Of a stretch of 64,000 bases of DNA, positions 1 through 63,715 are shown in pieces. The stretch is from assembly GCA_017506865.1 (NCBI GenBank), contig JAFCMP010000526.1:62001-126000 (forward strand). The letters run 5' to 3'. Origin of the DNA: Tribonema minus (lineage: Eukaryota > Sar > Xanthophyceae > Tribonematales > Tribonemataceae). A program made the translations under genes and the position numbers. Position 1 is the stretch's first letter. Each line of letters opens with the position of its first letter. The notes below the pieces were generated by a model. It did not search any database, was not told where the DNA came from, and saw only the letters and a list, made by a program, of their open reading frames with translations.

Positions 1-737
1 TGGGTTCAAGGCAGTGTGTTAGACTGACAGAGCGTCGCCATATGCAAGGTCAGATGCCAGCAATGCAATGTGCGGCTCATAACACAAAGCATGCATGAGG
101 AACTTGAAGTTCAGAAGTCATGCGCGAAGAGCTCGATGATGTCTCAATGACTAAACCAAGCAATGGGTGCGCAGTCATTCTGAAGACTGTGCCAAAGAAA
201 CTTATGCGCCTGGTCCCCATAGGTTCGTGTGCATTACGTCATCGAAGTTGACCTTGACTTCAACTTCAACTGCTCGCGCCGTGCCTCATTCTCTGCCATC
301 CTGCATCATCATAACCCTGATGTCATCAAATCCCAATGCCATGGAGACGTGTTACTGTAGCCACCATGTACTGTTTGTGCCGATGGCGCAACCTGATTGC
401 CGCAGGCACAGGCAGGCAGTGCAGGAGCTTCAGCATACCTACATGCGCCACATAAGCCATCATGGCATCAGACACCGCTGCCGGCTTGCCACACTTTGCG
501 AGCGCGAGCGGGCGGATCATCAGCTGCTAAGCCTAACCCAAACCCTATGTAACCGTAACCCTGCTCACATCTTGCCACATCTCCGCCCTACCTGGCGCGT
601 TATCAAACACGTCGCCCTCGCCATCAGAAACCGCACCACCTGCGCTCACGGCCTTCGCTGCTCTCGCCACGCGAGACCACACCACTTGTGCTGATGCCAC
701 AAGACCGCTCTCTCTCTCGCGCGCACTGCGTGACCAG
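1..737. other. Upstream region of the low-complexity gene, no confident gene
   Basis: No convincing complete gene is visible. Short open frames on both strands lack recognisable protein features. A TTCAACTTCAAC-type motif at about 257-271 recurs many times in the window. Near 530-560 there are degenerate CCCTAA-like hexamers. A pyrimidine-rich stretch ending in CCAG at 734-737 could be a 3' splice site for the gene that follows, in which case 5' exons lie here or left of the window. Confidence 0.4.
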
Positions 738-794
738 GCGGCGCAGGAGCTGTCGCCCATCGCGTACCCGCAGACGCCGGCGCAGACGGACGCC

Positions 795-17509: not shown

Positions 17510-19020
17510 CTATGCTCCGTAGATAGCGGCCCACGACAGGTACACCACCTCCTGCCCCCCGCCCGTGCTGCTGAACACCCACATGTCCCCCCTAATGTAC
17601 AGCCCTGCAGCATCGCTCAGCGCCCCCTTGAACTCCTCCGCGCTCACCGCCTCCCCCCCCGGCTCGCGCGCCCACCCGTGATCCTCCCTCAGCACAACGC
17701 TCAGGTGCCGCGGGGACCCCCCCACGTCAGGTGGCGCGAACGGCGTCGCATGGCTGTACCGCGCGCCGGCGGCGGTGGCGACGACGACGGCGCCGCGCCG
17801 CGCGCGCCGCGCGCCCCCCGCCGCCGTTGCGGCCAGCGTCAGCTGCAGGCGCCCGCCGTAGGCTGCGCGCAGCGCGGTCACGAAGGCGGCCGGCGCCGCG
17901 TAGTGCCAGATGCCGCTGTAGACCTCGCCGCACGGGTAGTTGGGGTTCAGCGACGGCGTGCCAGGCACGAGCGCCGCGCCGCGCGCCGACAGCAGCGCTC
18001 CGTTCTTGCCGCCGCTCGCGTCGGCGACGGCAGCGGAATATGGCACTGCGGCGGCAGCGGCAGCGGCAGCGGCAGTGGGCGCGATGGGCGTCATGCGCTC
18101 CGGCGCGAACTCCCAGTACAGCACCTGGCCGGCCGTGGCGCCGTCGAAGGGCGTATGCAGCAGCAGGGCGACCTCTGCGGCGCTCAGCATGCGGTCCCAC
18201 AGCTGCAGCGCCTGCACGTCGACGTCGAGTGCGGCGTCGGCGTCGGAGAACGCGCAGCGCGGAACGGCGCCCGCGGAACCCGCTTCCTCACATGCGCACG
18301 CGCCGAGGAACTGTCCGCGGCCGAGGACGAGCGCGCCGCCGGGCGCGAGCGCCGCGCCCACGGCGTACGGCCCGCCCTCGAACGCGTGCGCGCCGTCGAC
18401 GTACGCGGCGACGCGGCCGTCGGCGGCGCGCCACGCGAGCGCGACGTGGTGCCACGCGCCGTCGCCCGCGACGCGCGCGCCGGTGCGCAGGCCGCGCCGA
18501 TCGTTCGCGGCGCCATGTATATATTCGCCCGCGACGAGCACGCGCAGCCCGCCGCCGCTGTCGCCTTCGTCGGTGACGAGCAGGTCGAACGCGCCGCGCG
18601 GCGCCCCGGGGCGCACGTACGAGAGCAGCGTCTGCGGCCGCTGAGCGCTGGCGTCGGCGGCGCCGCGCGCGCGCCGCGCCCACAGGCTCACCGTGAACGC
18701 GTCGGGGGGGAAGTCGCGCAGCGGCGCCGCGGACACGGCGTGGCCGCCGCGCGACAGCCGCAGCACGCCGGGGCTCGCGCCGGAGAGCGGATAGGCGGCG
18801 CCGAGCGCGCCGCCGAAAGCGCAGTCGTGGTTGCACGGCGCGGCGGCGGCGAAGTCGCACGCGGCGTCGTACTCCGCGGCGCCGACGATGGCGTCGCTCA
18901 CGCCGAGCCCCGCCTCCGGCGCGACCCAGGGCGCGTAGCCATCGCCGTTGCCGGTGACGCTCCAGCCGTGCGCGCCGCCGCTGTTGAAGTTCGCTTCGGC
19001 GAGAGCTGGCACGGGCGACC
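17510..19020 (-). CDS. C-terminal laminin-B module interrupted by LamG/pentraxin-like domain
   Basis: Part of the last exon (19129-17510). After the end of the Calx-beta domain comes ANFNSGGAHGWSVTG, which looks like the first strand of a laminin domain IV (laminin B). Then comes a jelly-roll LamG/pentraxin-like domain (about 18830-18140) with FTVSLWARR, GAWHHVALAW, VAAYVDG and VQALQLWDRMLSAAEV. The laminin-B pattern then resumes at about 17925-17515: IWHYAAPAAFV, YGGRLQLTL, HLSVVLREDHGW, SAEEFKGALSDAAGLYIRG. Laminin B and LamG modules bind glycans or matrix partners. The gene ends YLSWAAIYGA-stop, with no transmembrane or GPI-like tail. The nested arrangement is inference from motif order. 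Confidence 0.72.
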
Positions 19021-22000
19021 CTGCTCCGAAGTCGTAGATGTAGAGGGTGGCGGAGGAGGGGGAGCCGGCGGCGGCGTCGAGGGTTTCTACAGAGAGGGTG
19101 ATGATGACTGTTTCGAAGAAGGACTCCGGCTGAGGGAGGGGGGGGGGAGGGGGGAGGCGGCTGGGATCACATGCGCTGCTGCTGCTGCTAGTGCGCGTGT
19201 GGTGACAGCACTACCAGGCCAGTTGCATTCAGAGCTTTCTGTGCATGCAAGTGCGTACACGTGCTTGCCAGCATGTGCCTACAACAACAGACCTGAACTG
19301 AATGTAGAAGCTTCAGCGGGCATGCTCATTTGCGCATAGCAGATCCGACATTAACGACGGACGCACCAGCTAACGCGTCAGTCAGTTTGCACATGCCAAT
19401 TCACTCAAGTTGTATTACTTGTACATGTCTGAGACATCAGGACTGCGGCAGACGCCGCTGCCATTACACTACGCATGTAAGTGCGCAAGTACTACTTACC
19501 ACCCTGTCGTTGACGATGCCTATCGAGAACGTCTTCGAGACTTCCCCGATGTCGAAGCGCAACTGCCCGGAGCCGCCAGTATAGTCTACTCCCGCTGTAG
19601 CTGTGCCGCCCGTGACCGAGTACTTCACAACCACAACGGCACCAGTGCCCTGCACGCGGAAGCGCCATCAGACAAACAAGAGTTTCATTTACATGGCATC
19701 ACATGTGGACAGTTGCAAGGTGATCGGCTCACCCTCACGACTCTGGCAGGCAATGATGCGGTTATTGTCTTGTGGCAATGCCCCGCAGCAAGGAGTGCAT
19801 GAGAAAGTTACCCCCCTCCCCCCCCCCCCCCCCAAGCAACGAGTGCATGATACAGTAAGTGGCGCAGCAGGTGCGGCATGATGCCAGCATCACCCTGTGG
19901 GTACTGAGAGCGGCGGAGTGCTGAGCACTGCTCACACGATGACGACCAGCATCATCAGCAACTGCACGAGCTGCAGGAAGAGAGTGAGAGTAAGAGTCAC
20001 CTGTGTCTGGCACCGCCTCATGAGCGCTGCTACGCAGTCTGCTAAGGGTTAGGGTTAGGGTTAGGGTTAGGGTTAGCGGGCCTTTGTGAAGCATTTTTCT
20101 GCGGTACACAGCTATGACACAACCAGGCAAGTATGTATGCACACAAACCTGTGTCCGCTGAACGGTCATCGTGGCCGCGCCGTCCGCCTCAGTGGCGCAA
20201 GTACAACCATAGTACAAGTGTGCCCTCAAGCGGAAGTACATCAAGTACAACTGTGTACTTCTCTGCAGTGCACAGCCAGGCATGGGAGTATTGACGGAAC
20301 CAGCCAGGTAAGTAGGCAAATACAACCCTGCGTCCGCAGAACGGTCAGTTCGGTCGCGCCATCCGCCTCAATGGCCCAGTACAAGTTCAGTACAACTGTG
20401 TACTTCTCTGCAGTACATAGCAAGTATGCCATGTAGGCACACAAACCTGCGTTTGCAGAACGGCAAGCATGGCCACCCCGTCCGCCTCTGTGGCCGCAGT
20501 ACAACTGTGTACGTCTCTGCAGTACATAGTCAAGGTACAACAGAGTACTTCTCTGCAGTACACAGCCAGGCATGTGAGTATTGACACAACCAGGCAAGCA
20601 TGCATGTATGCACACAAACCTGCGTTCGCAACACCGTCAGCGTGGCCGCGCCATCCGCCTCGGTGGCGAAGTACTCGCTAGAGCTGAGCGTCACCAGGCC
20701 CGCGAGCTGATACGGCAGCACCGCCGCAGTCGCGAAGCCCTGCGCCGCCAGCGCCGCCTCCGCGGGCCCTACTTCAACGACTTCCGTTGTGAACTTCAAG
20801 TAGCCGGCCACCGCTGTTTTGGTGACGGTGCCGGTGTAAAGGGCGCTGGAAGGGTCGTCAATCTGGGCTTGGAGTGTGCTCAGCACCTCTACCGTGGACT
20901 GCAGAGAAGGCAACGTGAAAGGGGGTGAGGAGGGGGGGGGGGGGGGGGGGGGGGGTATCATGGTGTGTGGAATGCAGAGGGGCGACAGTTTCGGCAGCAT
21001 GAATGAAAGGGGGTGGGGGTGGGGGCATCAGTCGCCATGAGCGTGAGTGTGTGTGCGTGTGATGGGTGTGGGGAGTATTGGGCAGCGGTGCAAGAGTGCA
21101 GCGGAGTACGGCGTTTCGTGGTGTACACACGTGCTTTGAAAACCACGGGGTGCGCGCATAGTGAATGATCAAACCTGCTGGTGAAACTTGCCGAACAGAA
21201 CTGCGGCGTGCGTGCCTGCAGGATGAGCACTGTCTCAGCAATGGCAGCGCTCAGCATGTCTGCAGGTTGAGCACTGCCTCAGCAATGGCAGCGCTCGACG
21301 TATCTGCAGGATGAGCACTGCCTCACCAATGGCAGCGCTCAGCGTGTCTGCATGTTGAGCACTACCTCAGCGAATGGCAGTGCTCAGCTTACCTTGTCTG
21401 CCAGCGACGCTGAGGGCCAGATGACAAAGGAGAACACCAAGGACCCCGATGAGACGCCAGTCACCTGCAGCAGCGCTCAACACGCGTACAAGAAATGTCA
21501 ATTCAGAGCCGGCAAAGCCGTGAGCCGTTCATGTTTTGTAAGATGTGGTCTCGCACGCCTGATCGTGCGCCAGCAAAATAACTTCAACAGTGCACATGAA
21601 TGCTTGTACCTCATATGGTGACGCATTCGGCGGCGGCCAGATTGGCTGCGCAGCACCTCAAACCGTGACACACCCACGCAACGGGCGGCAGCAAGGTCGG
21701 CGGCGAAGTTGCCCATCAGCAACAATGGCAAGTCATCCAGACAAATTCAACAGTGCAACAGGCTTGAAGTTCTTTACCTCAAAACGTGACGCATCCAAGC
21801 CGAGGGCAGTAGCGAGGTCGGCGGTGAAGCTGGCTATCAGCGACGTCCTGGCGGCAGAGCCAGCGGGATACTGACCGATGTCGCCTTCCGTCTTCATGGC
21901 GGCGACCACCTGCGGTCGCAGCAGTGGTTGAGCGTTGTGGAGTGTGGCAGTTCAATCAATGTCAACGCTACATAGTAATTTATCGATCCACATACTCCGC

Positions 22001-25000
22001 TCACAGTGTGAGTGGTAGTGGTAGCCGTTGGCCATTTGTGTATCGGCCCGTACAGTGCATGAGCGCTGGCTGCAGCAGTGCTTGAACTCTGTGGTTTCGG
22101 CAGCTAACGCTGTGCCTGACCCAATCTCAGGGCACCACAGATCATGTGACGTCGATGCGTGCATCGCGAATCACAATAGGGTTTGCCTCAGGTCTAGCGT
22201 AAAGGGTTGAGGTGAGGAGAATGGATTTTAAACACAATCCCAACACAAACCCTGATTCCAACCTAACCCTAACCTCAGCCCTAGACCTAACCCTGACCCT
22301 AACCCAAGACGGCGGCTTTGGTGACGCACTCACCTTCGTGCGTTGTGTCGCAGAGGAGGCTCCGTTGGAAACGCCGGCACCGCCGCTCTCTTCCTCTGCA
22401 GATGAAGATGCTGACGAGGTTGTTGAAGATTCCAGACGCATGGTCACCGCCATGTTGGCGTAGAGTTGCCACTGGCCTGCCGCTGCATGCCTGCTCAGTA
22501 ACAATTTCAGCAAGAAAGTGGATGAATATCGTCAGAGGAGATTTGCACAATGGGGATCATGATACTTCTCGGGTACCTGTGCCAAGTGCATTCAAATGTG
22601 TGGTGGTATTCGATGACGCTAATGACCTAACCCTAACCCTAACCCTAACCCTAACCCCAAATAAGAACCGACAGCTGGCTGCTGACCCAAGTGCCTGGCT
22701 CTAGCATTGCCTGGGCAAACGGGGTAAAAAGCAAGTGCCGTGCTTAATTTCCTGTGGACACAGGCACGTGAGGCAATATTGTGCTCTGCTGCGTGACTCA
22801 GCAATTCACATGCGTGCGCGTAGCAATGACTGACCACTTGGCCTTATGTTTTGATACCTCATTGAGCAATGGCACGTTGAACGAAGTGAGCAAACTGTCA
22901 GAAAATTTCCTGCGTCGCAGCAGGGCTTGCTCTCCTTGAGATGTTACAGATAAATGCTGCAACCGCTCAGTCACCCCCTAAGGCCTCACTTCATGGTGCC
23001 ACCATCACCGTGTACTTCCAGCGTACTTCAACTTCACCTGTAGCACAGATTCCACGGCGCGGCAACAGCGCTCAACGTCATGGTCGCGCGCAGGTCCGAG
23101 CCCACGCTGGCCGCTGCTGAGCCGCTGACACCAGTCGCTGTTGCGCATGCTGCGCTGGTGGTGATCGTGCTCTGAACAAAGAGCGCAGTGTCTCCGGAAG
23201 CGAGGCCGCCGCCGGTAAACTCAAATGTCACTGCCGTTGCCCCGGAGTCTGTCAGGTATTTCAGTCAAACAGCAAATGTATAGTACATATCAGTACGCGG
23301 GGGCATGTGATTCAATATCCCATCCCTTAGCCCCTGATTCTACCCCGAACCCTGACCCTAACCCTAACTCTACTCCTAACCCTAACGCTGCTCACCCATG
23401 GCCTTGGCGCGAACGACACGCACACTCAAGTACACAGTAAGATCATTGTCCGACGCCAGAAGTGGTCTGATGCCATAGGTACTATCACACCGTCGTCTGT
23501 TTGCTGCTGGCGATAAAGACGATGACAATCTGTTAGTAAACAATCTGTTGTTGTTGTAAGCAAGCTGCATCAGGCGGCAGGTCATGGCCGGCTGGTTTCC
23601 TGCATTGCATAGGAGACGCACCATCACATGCGCCAGTCCCACCGTCTGCCCAACACAAACCGCATGTACACTCAGACCCAAACAATCTCTCAACTTGAAG
23701 TCTCCAATAAACGCCGGAGCGCATCCCCACCCGCGCACAGCTCAAGTCAGCGCTCACCCGTCGTCGCCGTCGCCACGACAGCCACGGCATCAACAGCGGC
23801 GGCGGCGACCGACGCCCCATCGCTCAGCAGCCACGCGTCCCCCGCGCCGCCGCCGAAGCGTGCACACACGCGGTACGGCTTGTTGGCCGGCGTGGCAGCG
23901 CTCAGCGCGATGGGGAACGTCGCGGCGCCGTCCGTGAGCGCGGCGGCGGCGGGGGGCGTCACCGCCGTCGCCTGTATGGGCTGCGCCCCCGCGACGGCGT
24001 CGTACGCGGCGGAGCAGTCGGCGGCGTCGCCGGAGACGAGCTGCGGAGGCGCGGGCGCGCAGGGGGGGGGGGTAGGTGAGTATGTGTAAAATTTCGAGTG
24101 GTGGTCGGAGTCTTGCGCAAAAGCGTGGCAGGGCAGTTGGGCTTGACCCTCACCCACCCCCTAAGCTGGGCTCAAGAGGCAATCTGAGTGCCTGCACTGG
24201 GCAGCATAAGGATCGTGTACCCCAAGGTAATGAGCATGAGTGTAACTTGAGCCGTAATCTCAACCCAGTACTGAGGATATGAAGGCCGCCGCTGCAACAA
24301 GGCGATTTCGCACATGGCGCATGCTACCTGCAGCAAGTGGCAGAGCTGGCCGGCAATGCTCCTGCTCTGAGGGGACCGGGCAAGTCCGATAGCAGTGGCT
24401 GGATATATTTTCGTCACGTGCCATGTCACCAAGCTGATGGCAACTGTGCGCCGCCACGTGCTGCTGCAAAGCGTCAGAACAGAGCGGCCAGCCCAGCTGG
24501 TGGCCTTGCAAATATGAGGAAGCAAGTAACCTGTCACATGATCAGTGTTGGTTGCGGTCGCGTATGGCGACATGGGCTAGATTAAGTGTGGTTCAGTGAG
24601 CTAGGGTTCTGACTAAGGGTTGGGGTGACAAAAGTCAGCCATGGTGGGCGTCCACGTGCTAAAAACCCGCACCCGGCGCGCCTGCGTGCAGCCTCACGTA
24701 AAACATCAACCACTACCCCCCCCCCCCCCCCCCCGCTCACAAGCACTCACTCCAGTACACTCAACAACAAAGGACGCCAACAGCAGCAACCCCTCCCACA
24801 TGCGCCGCACCTTGATGTACGGCGCGCTTGCGACGAGCCCAAAAGTTCCCGCGAGCGTCACCGGCGTCGCCGCCGCGGCGCCCGCCACCAGCCACCGCGT
24901 CACCGCCAGCGCGTCGCCGGCGGCGGGCGCGACGACGCGCGCCGTAACCGCCGCATACAGCGCCAGCGGCTCCGCGCCAAAGCCGTAGCACAGCTGCAAC

Positions 25001-28000
25001 CCCTGCGCCGCCGCGCTGAACGTGAACGACGCGTCGGAAAACGGCCCGCCGACGATGGAAACGGCGCTGCCGCCGCCGCCGCCACCCGCCGCCGCTGCCT
25101 CCGCGGCGGCGCAGTCGCGCACCGCCGCCGCGACCCACGCGGCGCGGTCCCCCTCGCGCACGCCCGTGCCGGAGAACGTGACGGTCTGCGCGGTGCCGGC
25201 GACGGCGGCAACGCTTGCTGCTGCTGCCGCGCCGCGGAGCACGACGCCGCGCACGGCAGCAGAAGCCAGCGCGCTCACCGCCATGCGCAGGTCGCGCCGC
25301 AGCGCGAACGGCTCGCCCGCGGGCGCGTAGCACGCGATCAGCGCGTCGCCAGGCGTCGCGGCGGCGAACGTCACGGTCGCAAGGAGCGTCGCTGCTGCCA
25401 CTGTTGAATTTGAAGTTGATGTTGAAGTTGCCACGGTGAGAGTGGCGGCGGCGGCGGCGGCGGGCGCGCAGTCGGCGTCGGAGGCGGCGAGCGCTGCCAC
25501 CCATATCATGGCATCGCTCGGCTGCAGGCCCTCGCCCGACAGCGTGAGGGTCTTGGGCTGGCCCGCGACGGCCTCGGAGGCGCAGCCGGCGAGCGCTGCC
25601 ACGCCGCGGAGTGTCACCGCCGTGAGCTTGATGTCGCGGTAGAGCTTGACGGCGGACTCCGTGTTGAACCTGCGGGGCGAGAGAGTGGGGGGGGGGGTGG
25701 CGTTGTAGGTGAAGCGGATATGAGGACTTGCAGGCGTCAAGTAGTGGTGAGGATCAGGGTTGATGAATGCTTGTATGCAGCAAGGAGCCCCTGCGTCACT
25801 AGGGCTTATCACTTTTGAACCACATATGCTGCATAGTGTGCGATTGCTCACTGTTCTTGATGCTGGCCAGGGCATGCTGGGACACGCTGCAATCCCTACT
25901 CGCAACGCTCATGGGCAGAAAAGAGGCTTGCGCAATTTGGCAGCTGCATTTTGGCTTTAAAAATTTGCTGACACAACACTTGCCCCCCCCAGATCACCAG
26001 CAAATCACACTTGAAGGCCACACGCATTTTACAGGCAGCTGGCACGCTTGTGACCGTGGTGGATTGCGTTATTCACAAGATGATACAATCGACTTGCCGC
26101 AATACTTGAAACTGCATAACTTCAAAACGGAGAGTCACCCACACATGCAATTGACAGACGCAGTCTCATCACCTGTAGCAGAGCACCCAATCGCGCGCCG
26201 CCAACACAGTGCCGAGACGTTCGCTGAACACTGCCACGCCCAGGGCCCCGTCGCCCCCCACCACTGCCGCGGGGCCCGTCTGTAGGGAGGCCACGCTGCA
26301 GTGATCGTCGAGCGTCGCAGTTGAAGTTATCCACCACGCCTCGTCGCCGTCTTGAACCTGCGTGCCGCAATGGAAGGCAGGCAGATGCGAGTCACAGCTT
26401 ACTTCTTAAAGTATGACACGCGTATGAGGGCGTATGAGGCATTCAGATGCGAGCAGTTACAGCTACTGAAACAGCGTATGAGGTGGCCACGCTGCACGGC
26501 GCGTCAGTAGTTGAAGTTGAAGTGATGCACCACGCCATTGTCGCCGAATTTAACCCGTGCGTCATCATGAGACAGGCAACAGAGGTTTTAGGGTGCTGTG
26601 CCATGCAAGAGAGAAGAGGGATAATACACCTGGTCTCTGCATGTCACTCGTTATCAAACACGAAACATCCATGGTACAGTGATCGGAATAGTTGTTGGGA
26701 TGGTCGTGATCACCAGCAGAATACCTCATGGCTTGCTGACCCTAACTCAAATTCAACTCTTACCCGAATTCTCACCAATGAGACGCTTCATCAGTGGGGT
26801 ATGGTTGATCCTTATTCTGATGCTTATTCTAACCCTAACCCTAACCATAACCCTTCAGCCTAAGCCTTACCCCTAACCCTCAACCTAACTCCAATCCTAA
26901 GCCTGACCATTGACCCAATTAGAGGTAAATGCTAGCCTCAACCCCCCAACTCTCATCCCAATCTTAGCCCAGTTTCTAACCCTAGACCTAACGCTCACCC
27001 TAACCCTACCCTACTCCCTGCCCCTCACCCACCTGCTCATACCCCGCAAACACCAGCTCCTTCGGCTGCCCAACGACCAGCACATCCGCAGCGCCGCCGC
27101 GCCCCGCCGCCACCGCAACGCCGCTAATCCCCACCACCGCCAGATACAAATTTGGGTAGGCCATGTAAGGCTCCGTCGCGAACGCGTAGCACAACGTGTA
27201 GGGGCCCCCTATCGACGCGTCGGGGAACACGAGCGCGCGCGCGGTGCGGCCGCTCGCGTCGTCGTACGTCAACTTGAAGTCGCGCGCCGGCGCCGCGTCC
27301 GCGCGCGCCGTCGCCGGCGCCGCCGCGAGCACGCCCTGCGCGGCGTCGCAGCGCTCAGCAGCGGGGACCCACTTTACGGCATCCACATCGGCGGCGGCGG
27401 CGGTGCCGTAGCCCGCGAAGCGGAAGAGCTTGGGGAGGCCGGGCACGGCGCGGGTCCAGGCGCCGGCGTTGACGGCGACGGAGGTGAGGGCGCGCACTTC
27501 AATGGTGAAGTTGGGGTAGGACTTCCAGGGCTCGTCCGCGAAGCGGTAGCAGAGGCGGCCGCGGCGGCCGCCCATCGCGAAGGCGAACTGCGGTGAGGGG
27601 GGGCGGTGAGGGGGCGGCCTGTGTGAGAGGGGCAGCGGAGGCGTCGCCGCATGTAGACGTAGTCTGTATGCTATCGCAAGACGAGCTTGTTGCGGGTGCT
27701 TCAAATTGTCAATCTTGAAGTGAGTATTGGTCTCCCTGCGATGAACGGCGTGCAACTGACGCTCACTAGCGCATGCAGATGGCCCATGTGCAGCTGGCGA
27801 GCACTGCTGCTTTGCGAGCTCGTGCTCTGCGCGTCATGGCGACATGAGCTGCGATACGAAGTGATGATCTGAAGGCAGATGGCGCGGTGCTCTTTGCCGA
27901 CGAGGTGAAGGCTTGCCATCGGACGTGCTTCATCAACGCAGCAGCCGCCAAGCGACACCCGCCAAGGCCAATCACCGCTCTGCCACACTGAACAGCACCC

Positions 28001-55000: not shown

Positions 55001-58000
55001 CTGCGCCTTCCCCGGCCGCATTGGTGGCAAAGACCTGAAATGTGTAGTTCTGGGCTACTGCCAGCCCTGTCACATCCAGTGTCAATGTATTGCCGTCAAC
55101 ACTGGTAGCATTGTTCACTGTGGAGGTGCCAGCTTGCTGGTATGCTACGCGGAACTGTGAGATGGCTGCATTGTTGCTGGCAGGTGCTGTCCAGATTACG
55201 GCGGCATTGCCTGTGGCAGTGCTGGGTACTACTGACACAATGCTGCAGTGCAACATGCGGCAGCAGCGAGTAGCCATGATGATGGTCAGCATCTCACTTG
55301 ATTCATGTGCTTCTGGTGAGTCACGCAGGTGCCAAAAGTGCTAATAGGTACCTAGCAGCAGCCTTGCACTCATATTTGCGCTTCACCAGCTGCCTGGCAT
55401 GGTACGCTGGTGAGACAAACAGGTTTGTACAAGCAATATCTACTCAAGTCGATCTCTCAAGTATTGCTAGCATGCAGTCATATCTTGCCCGTGTTCCATC
55501 ATGGTATCATTAGCCAGCAACTCCGTACACCTTGCTCACCTGACAATGGATGGTGCAGCAGGCACTGCATATGACGTCAGCGCAACTGCTGCAAACGCTG
55601 TCACTGCATTGCCCTTGTCAAGGCCTGCTATTGAGGCAATGGTCACCCCTCCGGCAGTCAGTGCTGAGCAGTAGAGGTAGGGCCCATCTGCTGTCAATGA
55701 TCCAGTGCTGTCAAAGATCACAGTCTTGCTCAAAGCACCCGTGTTGACGGCCGATGTTGCAGTGTCCAGCAGCACACAGGCAGTGCCAGTCAACGATACC
55801 ACCGCTGTCATATCTGCAGCATCAACGCAAGAGCAGCAGGGTTTGCATCAAAGTCCACTATGACGTACTGCCAGTGACATTGTGTATGTACTCGGAAGCA
55901 TGAAAAAGCAAGCGCGCGTGTATATGAAATAGAAGTACAAAAATGTCAGGCAACTGGTGGTGGCTGCCTCACAAGTTTGCATGCAGGTTGCGGTTGACGA
56001 TGCATACGAGGTGACATTGTGCGAGCAAATCACCTTAAGGCCATAACTGATGTAGAGAAGGTGCTTATGGGCGAGCAAATTACCTCTTCAAGTGAAGAAT
56101 GAACGAACGGCTATTCACAAGGATGAATCTCAAGAACCACTGTTGAAAATTATCCTACATCGCGCAAGCCACATGCTGGTGAATTTCTGCTTGTCAATGA
56201 ATAGCCCAGCATCACTCGCTGAGCGCTGTAGCATTCCTTACCTCCATTAGCCACCGTCTGGCTGTCGGTAGCAGTGACCACAACCTGCAGCTGTGTAGCT
56301 TGGGCCAGCACAACGCCACCAGCACTGCCAGTTGCGACAGCAGCTGCATTCGCCTTGTACCGCAGTTCCAGTGACCCATAGATGCCAGTTCGAACTGTAG
56401 CTGCAAGCAGTGTATATGCGCTGGTGCCTGTGCATCAGCAAAGAACCAAAAAAGGCAGCAGGCATTGAGAGAGGGTGAGTTTTGGAGTCAATCAAAATTA
56501 CTTCTATATTTCTCAATAGCCATGCACAGTATCCAGCAGTCACCCATGTTGGCAATGCTGTGCTGGCAATTCGGAAGAGGTTAGGGGCTACATCATGATC
56601 ATGACATGACTTCAGCCATCAACAACTTTTGATGTGACATACCAGGTTGTTGGACCTGCATTGAGCGGAGGGCTCCTGCTCTATTGCCACAACTAAAGTT
56701 CGTGAAGCAATGTTGATTTCCGCAAATGAGTGCACGTGCAAAATAGCTCAAATGCCGTATAAAGCGGAACCACGAGAACACTCCGCAGTGAGCTTGGTAG
56801 CCCCTCAAAGCCAATTGAATTAGCTGCCATAGACACAATTTGTCAAAAACATGACCCAGGTAACCGTATCTGATCCTCACAACCTTCAGTGAGAGAGACA
56901 CCAAGCAACAATGCCTCTGTCAACTTGAGAAAACCCTCAAGGTCGATCCTGCATAGACAGAATGGTGGGCTGCTCATGATCCACAGCAGCTGCACTCAGC
57001 GCATGACGGCGAACGCATTCAGAAACACAAAGCTTGGGGTAGAAATGTTAAAAAGGGGTTCATCAGCAGACTCACCGCTCTGATTGATGGTCTTGACGCG
57101 GAACAGGTATGATGTGCCCTCTGCCAAGCCTGTTGCGGTGACTGTAGTTCCAGTGATGGTGTCTGAGATGGCTGCGTAGCTGGTGTCGCTGTCTGCAGCT
57201 GCCTTCACCTCCACCACATAGCTGGTCACCACATGGCCAGGTGACACAGGTGCTGTCCAGCTAAGGCCAACCGTTGTCGGGGACATGGCAGTTGCTGACA
57301 GACCGGTTGGCGCACCCGGCACTGCTGGAAAGATGAACACGTTGTCACTACTAGCGCTACCTGCGCCTTCCCCGGCCGCATTGGTGGCAAAGACCTGAAA
57401 TGTGTAGTTCTGTGCTACTGTGAGCCCCGTCACTTCCAGTGTCAATGTATTGCCGTCAACACTGGTAGCATTGTTCACTGTGGAGGTGCCAGCTTGCTGG
57501 TATGCTATGCGGAACTGTGAGATGGCTGCATTGTTGCTGGCAGGTGCTGTCCAGGTTACGGCGGCATTGCCTGTGGCAATGCTGGGTATGACAGATACAA
57601 TGCTGCAGTGCAACAGGCGGCAGCAAAGAGTAGCCATGATGATGGTCAGCATCACACTTAATTCATGTGCTTCTGGTGAGTCACGCAGGTGCCAAAAGTG
57701 CTAATAGGTACCTAGCAGCAGCCTTGCACTCATGTTTGCGCTTCACCAGCTGCCTGGCATGGTACGCTGGTAATACAAACAGGTTTGTACAAGCAATATC
57801 TACTCAAGCCGATCTCTCAAGTATTGCTAGCATGCAGTCATATCTTGCCCGTGTTCCATCATGGTATCATTAGCCAGCAACTCCGTACACATTGCTCACC
57901 TGACAATGGATGGTGCAGCAGGCACTGCATATGATGTCAATGCCACTGCAGAGAAGGCTGTCACCGCATTGCCCTTGTCAAGGACCGCAGTTGAGGCAAT

Positions 58001-61000
58001 GGTCACCCCTCCCGCAGTCAGCGCTGAGCAGTAGAGGTAGGGCCCATCTGCTGTCAATGATCCAGCACTGTCGAAAACAACAGTCTTGCTCAAAGCACCC
58101 GTGTTGACGTCCGATGTTGCAGTGTCCAGCAGCACACAGGTGGTGCCAGTCAAAGACACCACAGCTGTCATATCTGCAACATCACAACAACAGCAGCAGG
58201 GTATCATCCAATATTCAGACCTCGGGTACTGACAGTGTGCATCTTTGTGATACTGTGCATGTATATCAAACACAAATTTCAGGCAAATTGATGGCGGCTT
58301 ACTCACATGTAGGCGATCAGGCTGCATTTCACAATGTTGACAGCAATTCAAAAGGTGCTTGTGTGCTATCAAATCACCTCTTCATGGCAAAATCATCTGC
58401 TACTAGTATTACCGCAAGGACCGATGCCCTCAGGCTGATGCCAAGCAACACTTGAAGCGATGACCTGCAGGCAAAAGACACACGCTGGTGCAATTGTGCT
58501 TGTCAATGAATAGCCCAGCACCACTTGCTGAGTGCTGTTGCATTCCTTACCTCCATTAGCCACCGTCTGGCTGTTGGTAGCAGCGAACAAAACCTGCAGC
58601 TGTGTAGCATGCGCCAGCACAACGCCACCAGCACTGCCAGTTGCGACAGCAGCTGCATTTGCCTTGTACCGCAGCCCCAGTGACCCATAGATGCCTATTC
58701 GGACTGCAGCTGCAAGCAGTGTATATGCGCTAGTGCCTGTGCATCAACAGCAGCAACAAAGGCAGCAGGCAGTCTTGAGCATGAGTTTTCAACTGGAGCA
58801 AAGTGTAATTCATCAAGGGACAGCCATCAATGCATTGCAAAAGTCACTCACGTTGGCAAGACGTGCTAGCGCGGGAGTCAGAGTCTACATCATGATGATG
58901 ACATAGAGTCATGTGTGGCTACTAGTATGCTAGGAGGCAAGTTCTGCTGCCATTGAAATCTTGCACGGGGCACCATTATGCCTCAGGCTGCAAGTGGGTT
59001 GTGGTCCCATTTGCCCTTACATCAAGTCCAACCCTACAATTAACTTCAACGCTTATCTTAGCCCTCGTCTGAAACCCTACCCTGCATCCTCATCCAGACG
59101 GTCTTCCTGCACCCACCGTCAAGCTGTGATGTGACATACTGATGACATGGAGACATGTGTGTGGCTACTAGTATGCTAGGAGGCAAGTACTGCTGCTGTC
59201 AAGAACTTGCACGGGGTACAATGCCTCCAAGGGGGTTTTGGCCCCGTTTGCCGTCACACTTATAGTAAGTCCAGTCCCTAATCTAGAGCCAACACTGAAA
59301 ATCTAACCTGCATCCCCATCTAGACCCTTCTTCTTCACGCATCGGCAGTTGTTGATGTGACATAGCAGGTTACTGGGCCTGCATGGAGCGAAGGGCTCCT
59401 GCTCTATTTGCAATAACCAAAATGCGTGAACTACGATCTGATATTGGTTCCAGCAGTTGAGGGCACCTGTGAAAGTAGCTCAAATGCCATAAAAAGCGGA
59501 ACCACACAAAGGCTCTGCAGTATGCTTGGTGCCCCTCAAAAATCCAATGCAAGGCTGCAGGCGATCCGCAAGCGACACTCGGCACATGACGACAAAGGCC
59601 CCACCAGAAAAGACCAACTTGAAGCTTCAAGTTGGCATCAAGGATGCACTGCAGAGTCTGACTCACCGCTTTGATTGATGGTCTTGACACGGAACAGGTA
59701 TGATGTGCCCTCTGCCAAGCCTGTTGCGGCGACTGTAGTTCCAGTGATGGTGTCTGAGATCGCTGTGTAGCTGGTGTCGCTATCGGCAGCTGCCTTCACC
59801 TCCACCACATAGCTGGTCACCACATGGCCAGGTGACACAGGTGCTGTCCAGCTAAGGCCAACCGTTGTCGGGGACATGGCAGTTGCTGACAGACCGGTTG
59901 GCGCACCCGGCACTGCTGGAAAGATGAACACGTTGTCACTACCAGCGCTACCTGCGCCTTCCCCGGCCGCATTGGTGGCAAATACCTGAAATGTGTAGTT
60001 CTGTGCTACTGCCAGCCCCGTCACTTCCAGTGTCAATGTATTGCCGTTAACACTGGTAGCATTGTTCTCTGTGGAGGTGCCAGCTTGCTGGTATGCTACG
60101 CGGAACTGTGAGATGGCTGCATTGTTGCTGGCAGGTGCTGTCCAGGTTACGGCGGCATTGCCTGTGGCAATGCTGGGTATGACAGATACAATGCTGCAGT
60201 GCAACAGGCGGCAGCAAAGAGGAAACAGCAGTGCAATGGTAATGGTCAGCGCCACACACGATCCATCTGCATCTGATGAGTCATGCAGGTGCCCAAAGCG
60301 TGAATACCTAGCATTAAAGCCTCAAGCTCATATTGGCGCTTTCACCACCTACCTGGCAAACCATGCTGATAAATATGCAGATGCCAGCAGCCTGAGGTTC
60401 AAACAACAAGATCAACTTAAGCGGATCTCCCAAATTGCTAGCATGCAGTCATGCCGTTGTCTCCGCAAAGTCTTCTTTCAGCATGGCAGAAGTATAACTT
60501 GCCAGCAACTCTGTGCACATTGCTCACCTGACAATGGATGGTGCAGCAGGCACTGCATATGATGTCAGCGCAACTGCTGCAAATGCTGTCACTGCATTGC
60601 CCTTGTCAAGGCCTGCTGTTGAGGCAATGATCACCCCTCCAGCAGTCAGTGCTGAGCAGTAGAGGTAGGGCCCATCTGCTGTCAATGATCCAGTGCTGTC
60701 AAAGATCACAGTCTTGCTCAAAGCACCCGTGTTGACGGCCGATGTTGCAGTGTCCAGAAGCACACAGGCGGTGCCAGTCAAAGACACTACCGTTGTCATA
60801 TCTGTGGCATGGCAAAAAACAGCAGCAGGTTTGCATTACTGTCTACGTTACTGTCTACTCTTTAATACTGACAGTGTGTATGTACTTCGAAGCATGAATT
60901 AGCGCGCGTGTATACAAAAATGTCAGGCAATTGGATGGTGGCTGATTCACATGTAGGCATGCAAGTTGCGGTTGTCAATGTAGACATGTTGGCATTGTTC

Positions 61001-63715
61001 AGGCAAATTACCTTAAGACCGTAACAGATGTTGAGAAGGCGGTTTTGGGCGAGCAAATCACCTTGTCAAGGCAACACCGAATGGCTATTCATGAGAAATG
61101 ATGTCAAGAACCACTGAGACAAATTACCGTAAAATGCAAAAGCCACACGCTGCTGCAATTGTGCTTGTCAACAAATGGCCCAGCACCGCTTGCTGAGCGC
61201 TGGTGCGATGCTCACCTCCATTAGCCACTGTCTGGCCGTTGGTGGCAGTGAATACAACCTGCAGCTGTGTCGCATGGGCCAGAACAACACCACCAGCACT
61301 GCCAGTTGCGACAGCAGCTGCATTCGTCTTGTACCGCAGTCCCAGTGACCCATAGATGCCAGTTCGAACTGTAGCTGCAAGCAGTGTATATGCGCTGGTG
61401 CCTGTGCATCAGCAAAAAACCAAAAAAGGCAGCAGGCATTGAGAGAGGGTGAGTTTTGGAGTCAATCAAAATTACTTCTATATTTCTCAATAGCCATGCA
61501 CAGTATCCAGCAGTCACCCATGTTGGCAATGCCGTGCTGGCGATTCGGAAGAGGTAGGGGCTACATCATGATCATGACATGACTTCAGCCATCAACAAAT
61601 TTTGATGTGACATACCAGGTTGTTGGACCTGCATTGAGCGGAGGGCTCCTGCTCTATTGCCACAACTAAAGTTCATGAAGCAATGTTGATTTCCGCAAAT
61701 AAGTGCACGTGCAAAATAGCTCAAATGCCGTATAAAGCGGAACCACAAGAACACTCCGCAGTGAGCTTGGTAGCCCCTCAAAGCCAATTGAATTAGCTGC
61801 CATAGACACAATTTGTCAAATTCATGACCCAGGTAACCGCATCGGATCCTCACAACCTTCAGTGAGAGAGACACCAAGCAACAATGCCTGTGTCAACTTG
61901 AGAAAACCCTCAAGGGCAATCCTGCATAGACAGAATGGTGGGCTGCTCATGATCCACAGCTGCTGCAGCTGCACTCAGCGCATGACGACGAACGCATTCA
62001 GAAACACAAAGCTTGGGGTAGAAAAGTTCAAAAGGGGTTCATCAGCAGACTCACCGCTCTGATTGATGGTCTTGACGCGGAACAGGTATGATGTGCCCTC
62101 TGCCAAGCCTGTTGCGGTGACTGTAGTTCCAGTGATGGTGTCTGAGATGGCTGCGTAGCTGGTGTCGCTGTCTGCAGCTGCCTTCACCTCCACCACATAG
62201 CTGGTCACCACATGGCCAGGTGACACAGGTGCTGTCCAGCTAAGGCCAACCGTTGTCGGGGACATGGCAGTTGCTGACAGACCGGTTGGCGCACCCGGCA
62301 CTGCTGGAAAGATGAACACGTTGTCACTACTAGCGCTACCTGCGCCTTCCCCGGCCGCATTGGTGGCAAAGACCTGAAATGTGTAGTTCTGTGCTACTGT
62401 GAGCCCCGTCACTTCCAGTGTCAATGTATTGCCGTCAACACTGGTAGCATTGTTCACTGTGGAGGTGCCAGCTTGCTGGTATGCTATGCGGAACTGTGAG
62501 ATGGCTGCATTGTTGCTGGCAGGTGCTGTCCAGGTTACGGCGGCATTGCCTGTGGCAATGCTGGGTATGACAGATACAATGCTGCAGTGCAACAGGCGGC
62601 AGCAAAGAGTAGCCATGATGATGGTCAGCATCACACTTAATTCATGTGCTTCTGGTGAGTCACGCAGGTGCCAAAAGTGCTAATAGGTACCTAGCAGCAG
62701 CCTTGCACTCATGTTTGCGCTTCACCAGCTGCCTGGCATGGTACGCTGGTAATACAAACAGGTTTGTACAAGCAATATCTACTCAAGCCGATCTCTCAAG
62801 TATTGCTAGCATGCAGTCATATCTTGCCCGTGTTCCATCATGGTATCATTAGCCAGCAACTCCGTACACATTGCTCACCTGACAATGGATGGTGCAGCAG
62901 GCACTGCATATGATGTCAATGCCACTGCAGAGAAGGCTGTCACCGCATTGCCCTTGTCAAGGACCGCAGTTGAGGCAATGGTCACCCCTCCCGCAGTCAG
63001 CGCTGAGCAGTAGAGGTAGGGCCCATCTGCTGTCAATGATCCAGCACTGTCGAAAACAACAGTCTTGCTCAAAGCACCCGTGTTGACGTCCGATGTTGCA
63101 GTGTCCAGCAGCACACAGGCGGTGCCGGTCAAAGACACCACAGCTGTCATATCTGCAACATCACAACAACAGCAGCAGGGTATCATCCAATATTCAGACC
63201 TCGGGTACTGACAGTGTGCATCTTTGTGATACTGTGCATGTATATCAAACACAAATTTCAGGCAAATTGATGGCGGCTTACTCACATGTAGGCGATCAGG
63301 CTGCATTTCACAATGTTGACAGCAATTCAAAAGGTGCTTGTGTGCTATCAAATCACCTCTTCATGGCAAAAGCATCTGCTACTAGTATTACCGCAAGGAC
63401 CGATGCCCTCAGGCTGATGCCAAGCAACACTTGAAGCGATGACCTGCAGGCAAAAGACACACGCTGGTGCAATTGTGCTTGTCAATGAATAGCCCAGCAC
63501 CACTTGCTGAGTGCTGTTGCATTCCTTACCTCCATTAGCCACCGTCTGGCTGTTGGTAGCAGCGAACAAAACCTGCAGCTGTGTAGCATGCGCCAGCACA
63601 ACGCCACCAGCACTGCCAGTTGCGACAGCAGCTGCATTTGCCTTGTACCGCAGCCCCAGTGACCCATAGATGCCTATTCGGACTGCAGCTGCAAGCAGTG
63701 TATATGCGCTAGTGC
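17510..63715 (-). CDS. Giant modular FN3/Calx-beta/LamG/laminin-B protein, 5' end outside window
   Basis: Fifty-five exons join with matching phases and no internal stop: 18,584 coding nt, about 6190 residues. Exons in transcript order: 63715-63530, 63152-62879, 62581-62055, 61401-61216, 60801-60528, 60193-59667, 58736-58551, 58173-57900, 57602-57076, 56427-56242, 55813-55540, 55242-54716, 54092-53907, 53493-53220, 52890-52364, 51740-51555, 51141-50868, 50538-50012, 49388-49203, 48789-48516, 48186-47660, 47036-46851, 46437-46164, 45834-45308, 44684-44499, 44085-43812, 43482-42956, 42522-42337, 41625-41352, 40873-40564, 39816-39697, 39345-39232, 38066-37050, 36434-36184, 35688-35625, 35139-34852, 34627-34265, 33944-33813, 33029-32937, 32168-31539, 31149-30994, 30304-30089, 29691-29342, 28747-28114, 27587-27033, 26357-26173, 25669-24811, 24040-23758, 23248-23038, 22490-22334, 21909-21778, 21464-21393, 20898-20620, 19649-19500, 19129-17510. 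All domains are extracellular types and there is no membrane helix near the C-terminus, so a secreted or N-terminally anchored matrix or adhesion protein is likely. Splice sites are predicted by eye; one gene rather than several is inferred from phase continuity and domains that cross exon borders. Confidence 0.82.
19023..20698 (-). CDS. Calx-beta domain split over three exons
   Basis: Joining the end of exon 20898-20620, all of exon 19649-19500 and the start of exon 19129-17510 gives one complete Calx-beta domain. It begins EYFATEADGAATLTVLRTQ, continues GGTATAGVDYTGGSGQLRF and IGEVSKTFSIGIVNDRV, and closes with FFETVIITLSVE and SSATLYIYDFG. Both internal junctions are phase 0. Calx-beta domains bind calcium in exchangers and in many extracellular adhesion proteins; here the context is extracellular. 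The GTATAGxDYT signature and the acidic IVND site are intact. Confidence 0.85.
20045..20077. repeat. Interstitial telomere-like TTAGGG repeat
   Basis: About five perfect TTAGGG units on the plus strand, in the intron between the first and second exons of the Calx-beta domain. Confidence 0.9.
20132..20619 (-). pseudogene. Three decayed copies of a Calx-beta exon end inside an intron
   Basis: The 3' end of exon 20898-20620 (FATEADGAATLTVLRTQ plus its donor CAG/GTTTGTGTG) recurs about three times in the following intron, near 20132-20210, 20311-20395 and 20430-20510. The minus strand reads ATEADGAATMTVQRTQ, AIEADGATELTVLRTQ and EADGVAMLAVLQTQ there. The donor context CAG/GTTTGTG is kept in at least two copies. 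Between copies, a CTCTGCAGTACACAGCCAGG spacer also repeats. No complete exon is present, so these are exon fragments rather than working domains. Confidence 0.75.
20699..21909 (-). CDS. SEA-like stretch over three exons
   Basis: Exons 21909-21778, 21464-21393 and the first two-thirds of 20898-20620 read in one frame through phase-0 junctions. The reading runs TSLIASFTADLATALGLDAS, RFE joined to VTGVSSGSLVFSFVIWP, then STVEVLSTLQAQIDDPSSAL. The order 'ALGLxxSR.xVTGVxxGSLVFSF' followed by a short helix is typical of SEA-like ferredoxin folds seen in protist surface proteins. I see no GSxxV autocleavage motif at the expected turn, so cleavage is not indicated. The assignment is a motif impression only. 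Confidence 0.5.
21600..21731 (-). pseudogene. Decayed duplicate of the SEA-like exon
   Basis: The minus strand reads MGNFAADLAAARCVGVSRFE followed by GTGCTG, clearly parallel to IASFTADLATALGLDASRFE/GTAAAG of exon 21909-21778. It lies in the intron just downstream and lacks a matching 5' half. It could be an alternative exon, but the weak donor and incomplete length favour a relic. Confidence 0.6.
22334..34480 (-). CDS. Array of thirteen LCYRF-type domains (unnamed family)
   Basis: Exons from within 34627-34265 down to 22490-22334 encode thirteen units of very roughly 80-160 residues. Each has a start such as KTLTLSGEGLxxGD or KSWTFSGGHLVSGD, a WV/WI strand, an early Cys after about ten residues, and a closing LCYRFGAEPYxLY or a variant (LCYRF, LCYK, VCYSH, CVKF, LCYAF, CYAP, LCYGF, VCARF). 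The paired Cys suggests one disulphide per unit. Many introns fall at fixed places, right after the LCYR codons or after the GD/GDE motif, so the exons are offset half-domains. I know no named family for it; it resembles an immunoglobulin-like or TIG-like beta sandwich. The region follows the LPxDG domains and precedes the SEA-like stretch. Confidence 0.72.
22626..22657. repeat. Interstitial telomere-like CCCTAA repeat
   Basis: About five perfect CCCTAA units on the plus strand, the opposite orientation to the 20-kb tract, in the intron between exons 23248-23038 and 22490-22334. A shorter degenerate tract lies at 22256-22305 in the next intron. Confidence 0.9.
26478..26560 (-). pseudogene. 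Decayed duplicate of exon 26357-26173 start
   Basis: The minus strand carries a segment (GCGTGGTGCATCACTTCAAC, ending GCAGCGTGGCCACC) parallel to the start of exon 26357-26173 (GCGTGGTGGATAACTTCAAC ... GCAGCGTGGCCTCC). The copy runs into an in-frame stop after the expanded TTCAACTTCAAC tract, so it cannot replace the real exon. Confidence 0.6.
26829..27008. repeat. Degenerate CCCTAA-rich tract
   Basis: Perfect CCCTAA units at 26830-26848 are followed by a long decayed series (ACCCCTAACCCTCAACC, CTAACGCTCACCCTAACCC) up to about 27008, in the intron downstream (transcript sense) of exon 27587-27033. Confidence 0.8.
29863..29888. repeat. Telomere-like CCCTAA repeat
   Basis: Four CCCTAA-type units, one of them imperfect (TCCTAA), in the intron between exons 30304-30089 and 29691-29342. 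Confidence 0.85.
32735..32945 (-). repeat. Threefold repeat of an exon 3' end and donor
   Basis: The phrase ACGCACCTGAGTCGT, which is the 3' end of exon 33029-32937 plus its GTGCGT donor, occurs at about 32736-32750, 32828-32842 and 32931-32945. A CCTAA-rich linker and a CTCGCACCAGC phrase repeat with it. Only the last copy continues into the real exon. Confidence 0.7.
33134..33515. repeat. Two TTAGGG tracts in one intron
   Basis: Tracts at 33134-33149 and 33495-33515, both TTAGGG on the plus strand, in the intron between exons 33944-33813 and 33029-32937. The same intron holds exon-fragment copies. Confidence 0.85.
33170..33245 (-). pseudogene. Decayed duplicate of exon 33029-32937 start
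   Basis: The plus-strand text TTTTCAGCGGTCCTGTACAACTGCG near 33198-33222 parallels CTTCAGCGGCCCTGTGAACTGCG at the acceptor of exon 33029-32937. Only the acceptor and the first codons are recognisable. A similar ending of a GCTCCACGA phrase recurs near 33683-33690. Confidence 0.45.
34265..39816 (-). CDS. Five LPxDGxIxIxLP-type domains (unnamed family)
   Basis: Exons 39816-39697, 39345-39232, 38066-37050, 36434-36184, 35688-35625, 35139-34852 and part of 34627-34265 encode about five related units of roughly 110-180 residues. Each has an amphipathic strand pair, then a DWPADGALVLALP, DLPSDGVIAIALP, PLPTDARIFLGFP, PLPANGTIVIEFP or VMPAAAHVEVVPP motif. It later has VTVAR...VPAGARIVVTI and closes with a VxNQR or VTNPS segment followed by SGAFP...TT. 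Exon 35688-35625 is only 64 nt and supplies the GTEMGMGTLISIYLP part of one unit; leaving it out breaks the frame. Known families with this layout occur in protist and bacterial surface proteins, but I cannot name one. Confidence 0.7.
35150..35330. repeat. GTAGGTATG-rich imperfect minisatellite
   Basis: Irregular repeats of GGTAGGTATGTATGTGTGCG and GGATGGTA...GGGTCGGCAAGCAGG, in the intron just before exon 35139-34852 in transcript sense. Read on the minus strand it is a C/T/A-rich tract leading into the acceptor, so it may serve as an extended polypyrimidine tract. Confidence 0.7.
38105..38440. repeat. 88-bp minisatellite, nearly four copies
   Basis: Units begin with GGTTGCGGGGCGTGGAGCAA at about 38105, 38193, 38281 and 38369. 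The middle two are identical; the first and last are diverged. It sits in the intron directly upstream (in transcript sense) of exon 38066-37050, about 40 bp from the acceptor. Confidence 0.9.
40265..40288. repeat. Telomere-like CCCTAA repeat
   Basis: Three to four CCCTAA units in the intron downstream of the last FN3 exon (transcript sense). Confidence 0.85.
40404..40581 (-). repeat. 26-nt duplicate of an FN3 exon end and its donor
   Basis: Plus-strand 40404-40429 and 40556-40581 are identical (TACGCTACCTGATCCGCCAA and six further bases). The second is the real 3' end of exon 40873-40564 with its GTAGCG donor; the first is an isolated copy 152 bp further into the intron. Confidence 0.7.
40564..42522 (-). 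CDS. Giant gene, cassette 10 with single terminal FN3
   Basis: Exons C 42522-42337, B 41625-41352 and a shortened A exon 40873-40564. The A exon carries only one FN3 domain (AAVTWTAPLSNNADIAYYRIEY, then YTFWVYATNLAGEGA) and ends in phase 0 after SLADQ instead of phase 1. It leads into the LPxDG domains. The sequence is clearly diverged from the homogenised copies to the right, so this is the old edge of the array. Confidence 0.85.
40923..40982. repeat. Degenerate TTAGGG tract near an FN3 acceptor
   Basis: Ten or so TTAGGG variants (TTAGGATTTAGGG, TTGGGGTTAGGGG) starting 50 bp upstream, in transcript sense, of exon 40873-40564. Read as CCCTAA on the sense strand, it lies where a branch point and polypyrimidine tract would be expected. 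Confidence 0.85.
42956..44684 (-). CDS. Giant gene, cassette 9 (C, B, FN3-FN3)
   Basis: Exons C 44684-44499 (62 codons), B 44085-43812 and A 43482-42956 (two FN3 domains). The C exon, B exon and the 5' part of A match the homogenised array; the last 140 nt of A (YLVEVKA, SYAAVSDT, TGLTEVTSY) are diverged. The left edge of near-identity is therefore at about 43100. Confidence 0.9.
45308..47036 (-). CDS. Giant gene, cassette 8 (C, B, FN3-FN3)
   Basis: Exons C 47036-46851, B 46437-46164 and A 45834-45308. Exon lengths are 186, 274 and 527 nt with phases 1-1, 1-2 and 2-1, so the cassette adds exactly 329 codons. FN3 one has AAVTWTAPASNNAAISQFRV and YTFQVFATNAAGEGAG; FN3 two has APTGLSATAMSPTTVGLSW and SYLFRVKTINQSG. 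C plus B encode an unnamed module with two Cys (ACVLL, LYCSAL). Confidence 0.92.
47660..49388 (-). CDS. Giant gene, cassette 7 (C, B, FN3-FN3)
   Basis: Exons C 49388-49203, B 48789-48516 and A 48186-47660. The three exons look identical in protein to cassette 8. The introns show a few private changes, such as GATATAG near 49014-49021 and TCCTCCACTG near 49113. Confidence 0.92.
50012..51740 (-). CDS. Giant gene, cassette 6 (C, B, FN3-FN3)
   Basis: Exons C 51740-51555, B 51141-50868 and A 50538-50012, offset 2352 bp from cassette 7 and the same in protein. The intron just left of A, near 49630, reads CTAAAAATCGTG where the sister copies read CTAAAGTTCGTG. Confidence 0.92.
52364..54092 (-). CDS. 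Giant gene, cassette 5 (C, B, FN3-FN3)
   Basis: Exons C 54092-53907, B 53493-53220 and A 52890-52364, again at 2352-bp spacing with the same protein. A few intron changes (GTAGAGAAGG and GCGAGCGAAT near 53722-53750) distinguish it and link it to cassette 4. Confidence 0.92.
54716..56427 (-). CDS. Giant gene, cassette 4 (C, B, FN3-FN3)
   Basis: Exons C 56427-56242, B 55813-55540 and A 55242-54716. The 3' two-thirds of A belong to the homogenised array. From about 55070 rightwards the sequence diverges (SVVPSTATGNAAVIW, LDVTGLAV), which marks the right edge of near-identity. Confidence 0.9.
57076..58736 (-). CDS. Giant gene, cassette 3 (C, B, FN3-FN3)
   Basis: Exons C 58736-58551, B 58173-57900 and A 57602-57076. 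FN3 one carries variant residues (QFRIAYQQAG, LEVTGLTV, GSASSDNV) shared only with cassette 1. All three exons lie exactly 4979 bp from their cassette 1 counterparts, showing a two-cassette higher-order duplication. Confidence 0.9.
59667..61401 (-). CDS. Giant gene, cassette 2 (C, B, FN3-FN3)
   Basis: Exons C 61401-61216, B 60801-60528 and A 60193-59667. Variants are TSTENNATSVNG and SYTAISDT in the FN3 domains and MTTVVSL in B. The intron between this A exon and the next C exon (58737-59666) is unusually long at 930 bp and mostly unlike the other A-to-C introns. Confidence 0.9.
62055..63715 (-). CDS. Giant gene, cassette 1, first in window
   Basis: Exons C 63715-63530, B 63152-62879 and A 62581-62055. 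The C exon starts in phase 1, so at least one more upstream exon, probably another FN3 pair, lies beyond 64000. Sequence to the right edge (63716-64000) matches the intron at 58737-59020 almost perfectly and holds no exon. Confidence 0.88.

Follow-up and report, generated by a model that had tools for sequence, protein, structure and literature searches.

The question raised by this locus is whether the minus strand of one stretch of algal DNA encodes a single giant extracellular protein, and what such a protein might do. The window, i.e., the whole stretch of 64,000 nucleotides that was analysed, spans positions 62001-126000 of C523, a contig of 743,444 bases in a genome of 158 Mb and 554 contigs. 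Positions beyond its end are given as window equivalents.

Host and setting

The host had been described, from the letters of the window, as what looks like an alga. A photosynthetic host is borne out by 92 light-harvesting matches in the genome search. The nearest match of a light-harvesting piece is FCP-D/Fcpb5, which we take to be diatom proteins. A RuBisCO fragment scored 114-117 bits against one set of entries, presumably of the red type, and 65 bits against a second set, presumably of the Chlamydomonas and plant types. A green alga is disfavoured by these scores; judged by the sequences compared, the host is likely an alga of the red lineage.

Two other loci of the window were noticed. 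At 8516-15803 lie ankyrin-repeat genes duplicated in tandem, which carry LQWARANGCPW repeats and are 95% alike over 4.5 kb; the copy at 14319-15803 has Pfam Ank matches. An open frame of 1,450 aa, rich in A, P and Q, lies at 537-4889 on the plus strand, i.e., opposite to the giant gene.

Gene model

The features of the gene within the window are the following.

63715..17510, minus strand: in-window part of the giant gene (hand-curated exon-chain model; 55 exons, 6,221 in-phase codons)
42337..63715, minus strand: in-window part of the FN3-FN3-X array (exon models, fn3 and X places, exon selection)
43483..55242, minus strand: five near-identical 2352-bp tandem units, introns included
40564..41625, minus strand: end of the array, i.e., second half of the last X and last FN3 (exon model, Pfam, LPxDG profile)
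34376..40575, minus strand: region of five LPxDG domains (profile from contig C143)
~40575-37902, 37892-37437, 37433-37068, 36401-35002 and 34986-34376, minus strand: LPxDG domains 1 to 5
22417..34369, minus strand: about 13 LCYRF domains (hand alignment A2, LCYRF profile)
20780..21909, minus strand: SEA-like stretch (motif by eye)
19031..20700, minus strand: Calx-beta domain (PF03160; 67.2 bits when spliced, cut-off 27)
18170..18742, minus strand: LamG-like domain (Laminin_G_3, concanavalin A-like; PF13385, 36.7 bits, cut-off 27.6)
17582..17902, minus strand: laminin B domain (domain IV; PF00052, 30.8 bits, cut-off 22.4)
17510..19129, minus strand: terminal exon with the end of Calx-beta, LamG, laminin B and the TAG stop

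The earlier note had proposed a 46-kb gene of at least 55 exons, joined in phase without a stop over about 6190 residues. An independent curated model arrives at the same 55 exons and limits, and its 6,221 codons contain a single, terminal stop (TAG at 17512-17510). The full model, extended beyond the window, has 70 exons over 60.3 kb and encodes 7,868 aa (781 kDa, pI 4.6). Every one of its 69 introns (54 lie in the window) has GT-AG ends, the chain having required AG and allowed GT or GC as donor.

Curation consisted of (i) the removal of five doubtful exons (29270-29245, 29037-29010, 24463-24328, 20485-20447 and 20187-20149); (ii) a shift of the donor at 24800 to 24811 to hold the frame, since removal of exon 24463-24328 with the donor left at 24800 broke it; (iii) outside the window, the joining of two pieces into the 186-nt exon 73668-73483. 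Exon 35688-35625 was kept with a negative coding score (−4.0). It must be noted that the exon finder was trained on the gene's own region and chained spurious exons through both flanks, so that the chain by itself is weak proof and other support was used. Self-trained gene finding with loose penalties chained exons over the entire fetched stretch and served as a source of candidates only.

Repeats also occur within the gene. Telomere-like (TTAGGG)n repeats are present on both strands at ten sites of the window, all between 20049 and 40281, and the ten sites all fall inside model introns, which lends the exon model further support. The sequence TTAGGGTTAGGG has 15 exact matches in the window, versus 0.02 expected. 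A 43-bp segment occurs four times at 20148-20661: one copy spans the end of exon 20898-20620 together with its donor, and the other three lie within the intron that follows this exon. These copies are possibly decoy donors or alternative 39-nt exons.

FN3-FN3-X array

The array had been described as made of FN3. The FN3 assignment holds, with scores above the Pfam cut-off; the array is not composed of FN3 only and reads FN3-FN3-X. FN3 scores 223.1 bits over a segment of 702 residues from the array's 5' end, which lies beyond the window; the last FN3 of the gene scores 59.2 bits. The Pfam scan covered four segments, i.e., these 702 residues and the region 3' of the array, while the middle of the array was covered by a six-frame FN3 search. 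By that search the gene contains 28 FN3 places, 19 of which are in the window. The upstream limit of the array is at window-equivalent 74904. It comprises 13 complete units of three exons (527 + 186 + 274 nt), each encoding 329 aa. X is a third unnamed domain of about 135 residues, encoded by the 186- and 274-nt exons and present in 14 copies. It has no Pfam match in the scanned segments and no NCBIfam or PHROGs match, and it was found at 41 places in the genome, on the giant gene and contig C439 alone (this and the other genome-wide place counts for domain queries being lower bounds). X and the near-identical tandem exon units are absent from the earlier note.

Selection on the array exons was measured on the units at 72540 and 70150. 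Their exons are 94.5% identical (54 of 984 coding positions differ), and the differences are distributed 13/5/36 over codon positions 1/2/3 (dN 0.024, dS 0.153). Their introns are only 57% and 67% alike, with large gaps. The low dN/dS of the exons, together with the decayed introns, shows purifying selection on the protein in the array exons.

Other units are much closer to each other. Neighbouring 2352-bp units differ at 12, 3, 5 and 0 of 2352 positions, and for the three double units of 4979 bp the differing positions number 19 and 6, with a further 6 and 2 gap columns. Contig C439 (14.4 kb) consists of array sequence, with 12 FN3 places by the six-frame search, and is 99.1% like part of the array; it may derive from the second haplotype or consist of copies left unplaced. 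The number of units in the assembly is to be taken with caution. A real possibility, to which we give somewhat less than even weight, is that the near-identical units are partly an artefact of assembly and that the real protein is shorter or longer. The similarity of C439 is what an unresolved repeat or a second haplotype would produce. The point changes that separate most neighbouring units argue against an artefact, with the limit that one neighbouring pair is identical, and the older unit types are clearly distinct. Gain or loss of a unit keeps the frame, because a unit holds 987 coding bases, a multiple of three; the array is read as amplified recently and in frame.

Domains downstream of the array

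The earlier note's proposal to search profiles of FN3, Calx-beta, LamG and laminin B gave all four above the Pfam cut-offs. Calx-beta is encoded by three exons (20898-20620, 19649-19500 and 19129-17510), and its score rises from 41.1 bits unspliced to 67.2 bits spliced. For Calx-beta, Laminin_B and the last exon the giant gene is the only match found in the genome, these counts being lower bounds. One weak match of the last exon (21% identical) was found in viral contigs.

The description of some domains as unnamed was right for LPxDG and LCYRF in the pieces scanned. In the scanned segments neither has a Pfam match; the LPxDG exon 38066-37050 and two LCYRF exons have no NCBIfam or PHROGs match. 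Profile searches of both against PDB stayed at chance level (the lowest E values being 0.0052, for a heat-shock protein, and 0.66), and the viral contigs gave no confirmed relative of one LPxDG exon or one LCYRF exon. A pair of cysteines is invariant in all 13 hand-cut LCYRF copies. The SEA-like label is not sustained by Pfam, with no match at E 1 or at 0.01.

Splicing can be judged from profiles built on unspliced copies, one of them an unlinked paralogue, which match several domains formed only by splicing. For LPxDG the profile drew on 11 units of the paralogue on contig C143, which is intronless, and only rows above 3 bits were kept. It finds five domains in the spliced protein (56.9, 33.5, 34.3, 48.1 and 12.2 bits), the first, fourth and fifth being interrupted by introns. 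Splicing raises the first to 56.9 bits from pieces of 27.4 and 31.0 and the fourth to 48.1 bits from pieces of 42.9 and 1.7; the fifth gains nothing (12.2 bits versus 14.5 for its best piece). Among the three top-ranked of 200 shuffles, the best domain reached 2.8 bits. The LCYRF profile was built from six single-exon copies and scored on seven held-out spliced copies (copies 1, 3, 4, 7, 9, 12 and 13: 34.5, 49.0, 42.4, 53.4, 22.4, −0.2 and 13.1 bits). Five of the seven, at 22.4-53.4 bits, exceed their own pieces; copy 13 scores below its unspliced piece (17.9 bits), and copy 12 is missed by this profile.

LPxDG and FN3 also occur elsewhere in the genome. Six of the seven places found with a one-exon LPxDG query, a lower bound, are on C143. 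The paralogue there (158499-167554) is large, with an open frame of 2,206 aa that has no intron over its 2,206 codons, and its cysteine-rich tail resembles Ephrin_rec_like below the cut-off (21.8 versus 23.1 bits). It shares LPxDG repeats with the giant gene but is intronless, and none of the queries for X, LCYRF, Calx-beta and Laminin_B matched its frame. A 555-residue LCYRF query found at least seven places, one of which is a 50-residue fragment on contig C135; there, at 324855-325024, a 166-bp piece is 96% identical to the DNA around one LCYRF exon and would be a small, fairly recent copy of it. Another large modular protein, of contig C101, has FN3 in common with the giant gene and shows FN3, PA14 and filamin matches in a single 1,571-aa frame. 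FN3 also matches open frames of great length (the longest 6,963 aa) on contigs C179, C223, C181, C59 and C90. In this they differ from the spliced giant gene, and they may be bacterial contigs, viral stretches or intronless algal giants.

One gene or several

Of the five junctions between domain classes, three lie inside single exons, a fourth does so marginally, and the fifth is bridged by splice phase alone. In exon 34627-34265 the fifth LPxDG, a weak one, gives way to the first LCYRF; in exon 20898-20620 the SEA-like stretch (motif by eye) gives way to Calx-beta; and exon 19129-17510 contains the last part of Calx-beta together with LamG and laminin B. Exon 40873-40564 combines the last FN3 with no more than the five opening residues of the profile match to LPxDG domain 1. 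The joint bridged by phase is that between LCYRF and the SEA-like stretch, at intron 22333-21910.

The single gene of the earlier note is thus firm or fairly firm at three joints, marginal between FN3 and LPxDG and dependent on phase between LCYRF and SEA-like. That two or more adjacent genes have been read as one is quite improbable. Breaks would be placed at intron 22333-21910 or at intron 40563-39817, where exon sharing amounts to five profile residues, and the finder was too ready to chain flanks. Against this, a single exon holds parts of both classes at LPxDG/LCYRF, SEA-like/Calx-beta and Calx-beta/LamG, although the LPxDG concerned, the fifth, scores weakly and the SEA-like stretch was recognized by eye only.

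N-terminus and secretion

The 5' end, said to be still outside the window, is likely an ATG at window-equivalent 77857, i.e., 13.9 kb beyond the window. Nine hydrophobic ATG candidates were listed from 85300 to 74904, and none of the others reaches the hydropathy of this one (3.17). The exon that it opens, 104 nt long, encodes MAQRRRTANSRWSWSCVVVLLLLQCIVAARKGSS, which has the typical look of a signal peptide by hydropathy and by eye, the start codon being presumptive. Between this first exon and the first exon for FN3 the model places the 647-nt exon 77570-76924, which is in phase with both. Exons in 76924-74904 are uncertain, the small exons 76745-76651 and 76349-76322 being likewise frame-keeping. 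The distance from the ATG to a divergent open frame (window-equivalent 78106 onward, plus strand, contig C523) with its own hydrophobic start is about 250 bp. The open frame just downstream of that divergent frame has a TPM domain and, by eye, a RING-like cysteine pattern.

No convincing transmembrane segment was found by hydropathy in the full protein model (highest 19-residue value 2.11, in the LPxDG region), and no membrane or wall anchor was identified in it. The model contains 48 N-glycosylation sequons and two RGD motifs, the latter about as many as expected from composition by our own estimate. The placement as a surface or matrix protein is thus supported by the signal-peptide-like start and by the hydropathy profile.

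Proposed function

We favour, with a confidence modestly above even, one gene (77857 to 17510, minus strand) whose product, about 7,870 residues long, would be secreted and serve as an adhesin of the extender type or as a matrix strand. The protein would be secreted via the hydrophobic leader. The 28 FN3 and 14 X domains would form a long stalk, and the LPxDG and LCYRF domains would extend it; for X, LPxDG and LCYRF the stalk role is presumptive. At the C-terminus, Calx-beta, LamG and laminin B would be the tip, predicted to bind glycan or matrix. The length of the stalk would shift by duplication or loss of whole three-exon units, with the frame kept. This reading is suggested by (i) the leader-like start, spliced in phase to the first FN3; (ii) the domain matches and the lack of a strong transmembrane segment; (iii) array units that are nearly or fully identical, as in MpIBP; (iv) binding-type domains located at one end alone.

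A bulk structural protein of a matrix or sheath, placed in an extracellular layer without a specific binding tip, is a rather unlikely alternative. It would fit the leader-like start, the acidic pI, the sequons and the highly repetitive sequence. It accounts less well for binding-type C-terminal domains that are gathered at one end and for which no second genome copy was found (lower-bound counts).

Relation to known systems

The extender-type reading draws on bacterial adhesins. In the part of PMC7493085 available, the repeats of MpIBP, a bacterial extender adhesin, are given as 100% identical even in DNA, and the tandem beta-sandwich region of such adhesins is said to bear ligand-binding domains. 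As far as that part goes, the RTX extender adhesins (MpIBP, MhLap, AhLap) and the giant gene are alike in a very large protein, probably secreted in the case of the giant gene, and in a long tandem stalk and distal ligand-binding domains, both presumed for the giant gene. The giant gene differs in being nuclear, with 69 model introns, a leader-like start, FN3 and unnamed domains, and no Pfam match to the RTX family was found in the scanned segments. Because it is spliced, has a leader-like start and shows no RTX match in the scanned segments, it stands outside the RTX adhesins; a bacterial extender adhesin may be its closest working analogue.

With animal tenascins, fibronectin and laminins the giant gene shares the FN3 array, LamG and laminin B modules. 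It differs in domain order and in its unnamed domains. No laminin EGF match was found in the scanned segments, and no fibrinogen C, FN1 or FN2 in the four Pfam segments or the N-terminal 250 residues, so the gene is not placed among animal laminins, tenascins or fibronectins. Phase 1-1 is the class described for shuffled animal modules (PMC8001218, as far as available). Both the exon of the first FN3 (74904-74665) and the exons of 186 nt are of phase 1-1 and recall that class, to the extent that this source describes it; most FN3 domains of the gene are not individually bounded by phase-1 introns.

The presence of animal modules had been called striking. For FN3 this does not hold, as it is no animal signature: it matched in six of 14 prokaryote control genomes (five above cut-off), so the module alone is no surprise. 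Calx-beta and Laminin_B, in contrast, were found in none of the 14. The unexpected features of the gene are its size, the amplification of an exon cassette and the unnamed domains. According to the available portion of PMC8307928, brown algae lack fibronectin and other matrix partners of integrins; having FN3 domains does not by itself make a protein a fibronectin, so the giant gene is not in conflict with that portion.

The accessible text of the review PMC8001218 asks why exon shuffling of extracellular modules stays restricted to animals, and that of PMC11378527 reports tandem exon shuffling of leucine-rich repeats in brown algal ROCO genes. Among literature titles none was found on this architecture in an alga, most subscription papers being outside the search. 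With this locus, amplification of an FN3 cassette across introns is documented in a photosynthetic lineage outside the animals, and the selection on its exons has been measured; three domain families (X, LPxDG and LCYRF) are offered for description. Array length polymorphism between strains is likely. Tentatively, an alga of the red lineage may have evolved independently an animal-like way of building giant extracellular proteins, i.e., a phase-symmetric FN3-FN3-X cassette amplified in frame through introns, with a length variable between strains, tip domains in single copy in the genome and three undescribed domain families.
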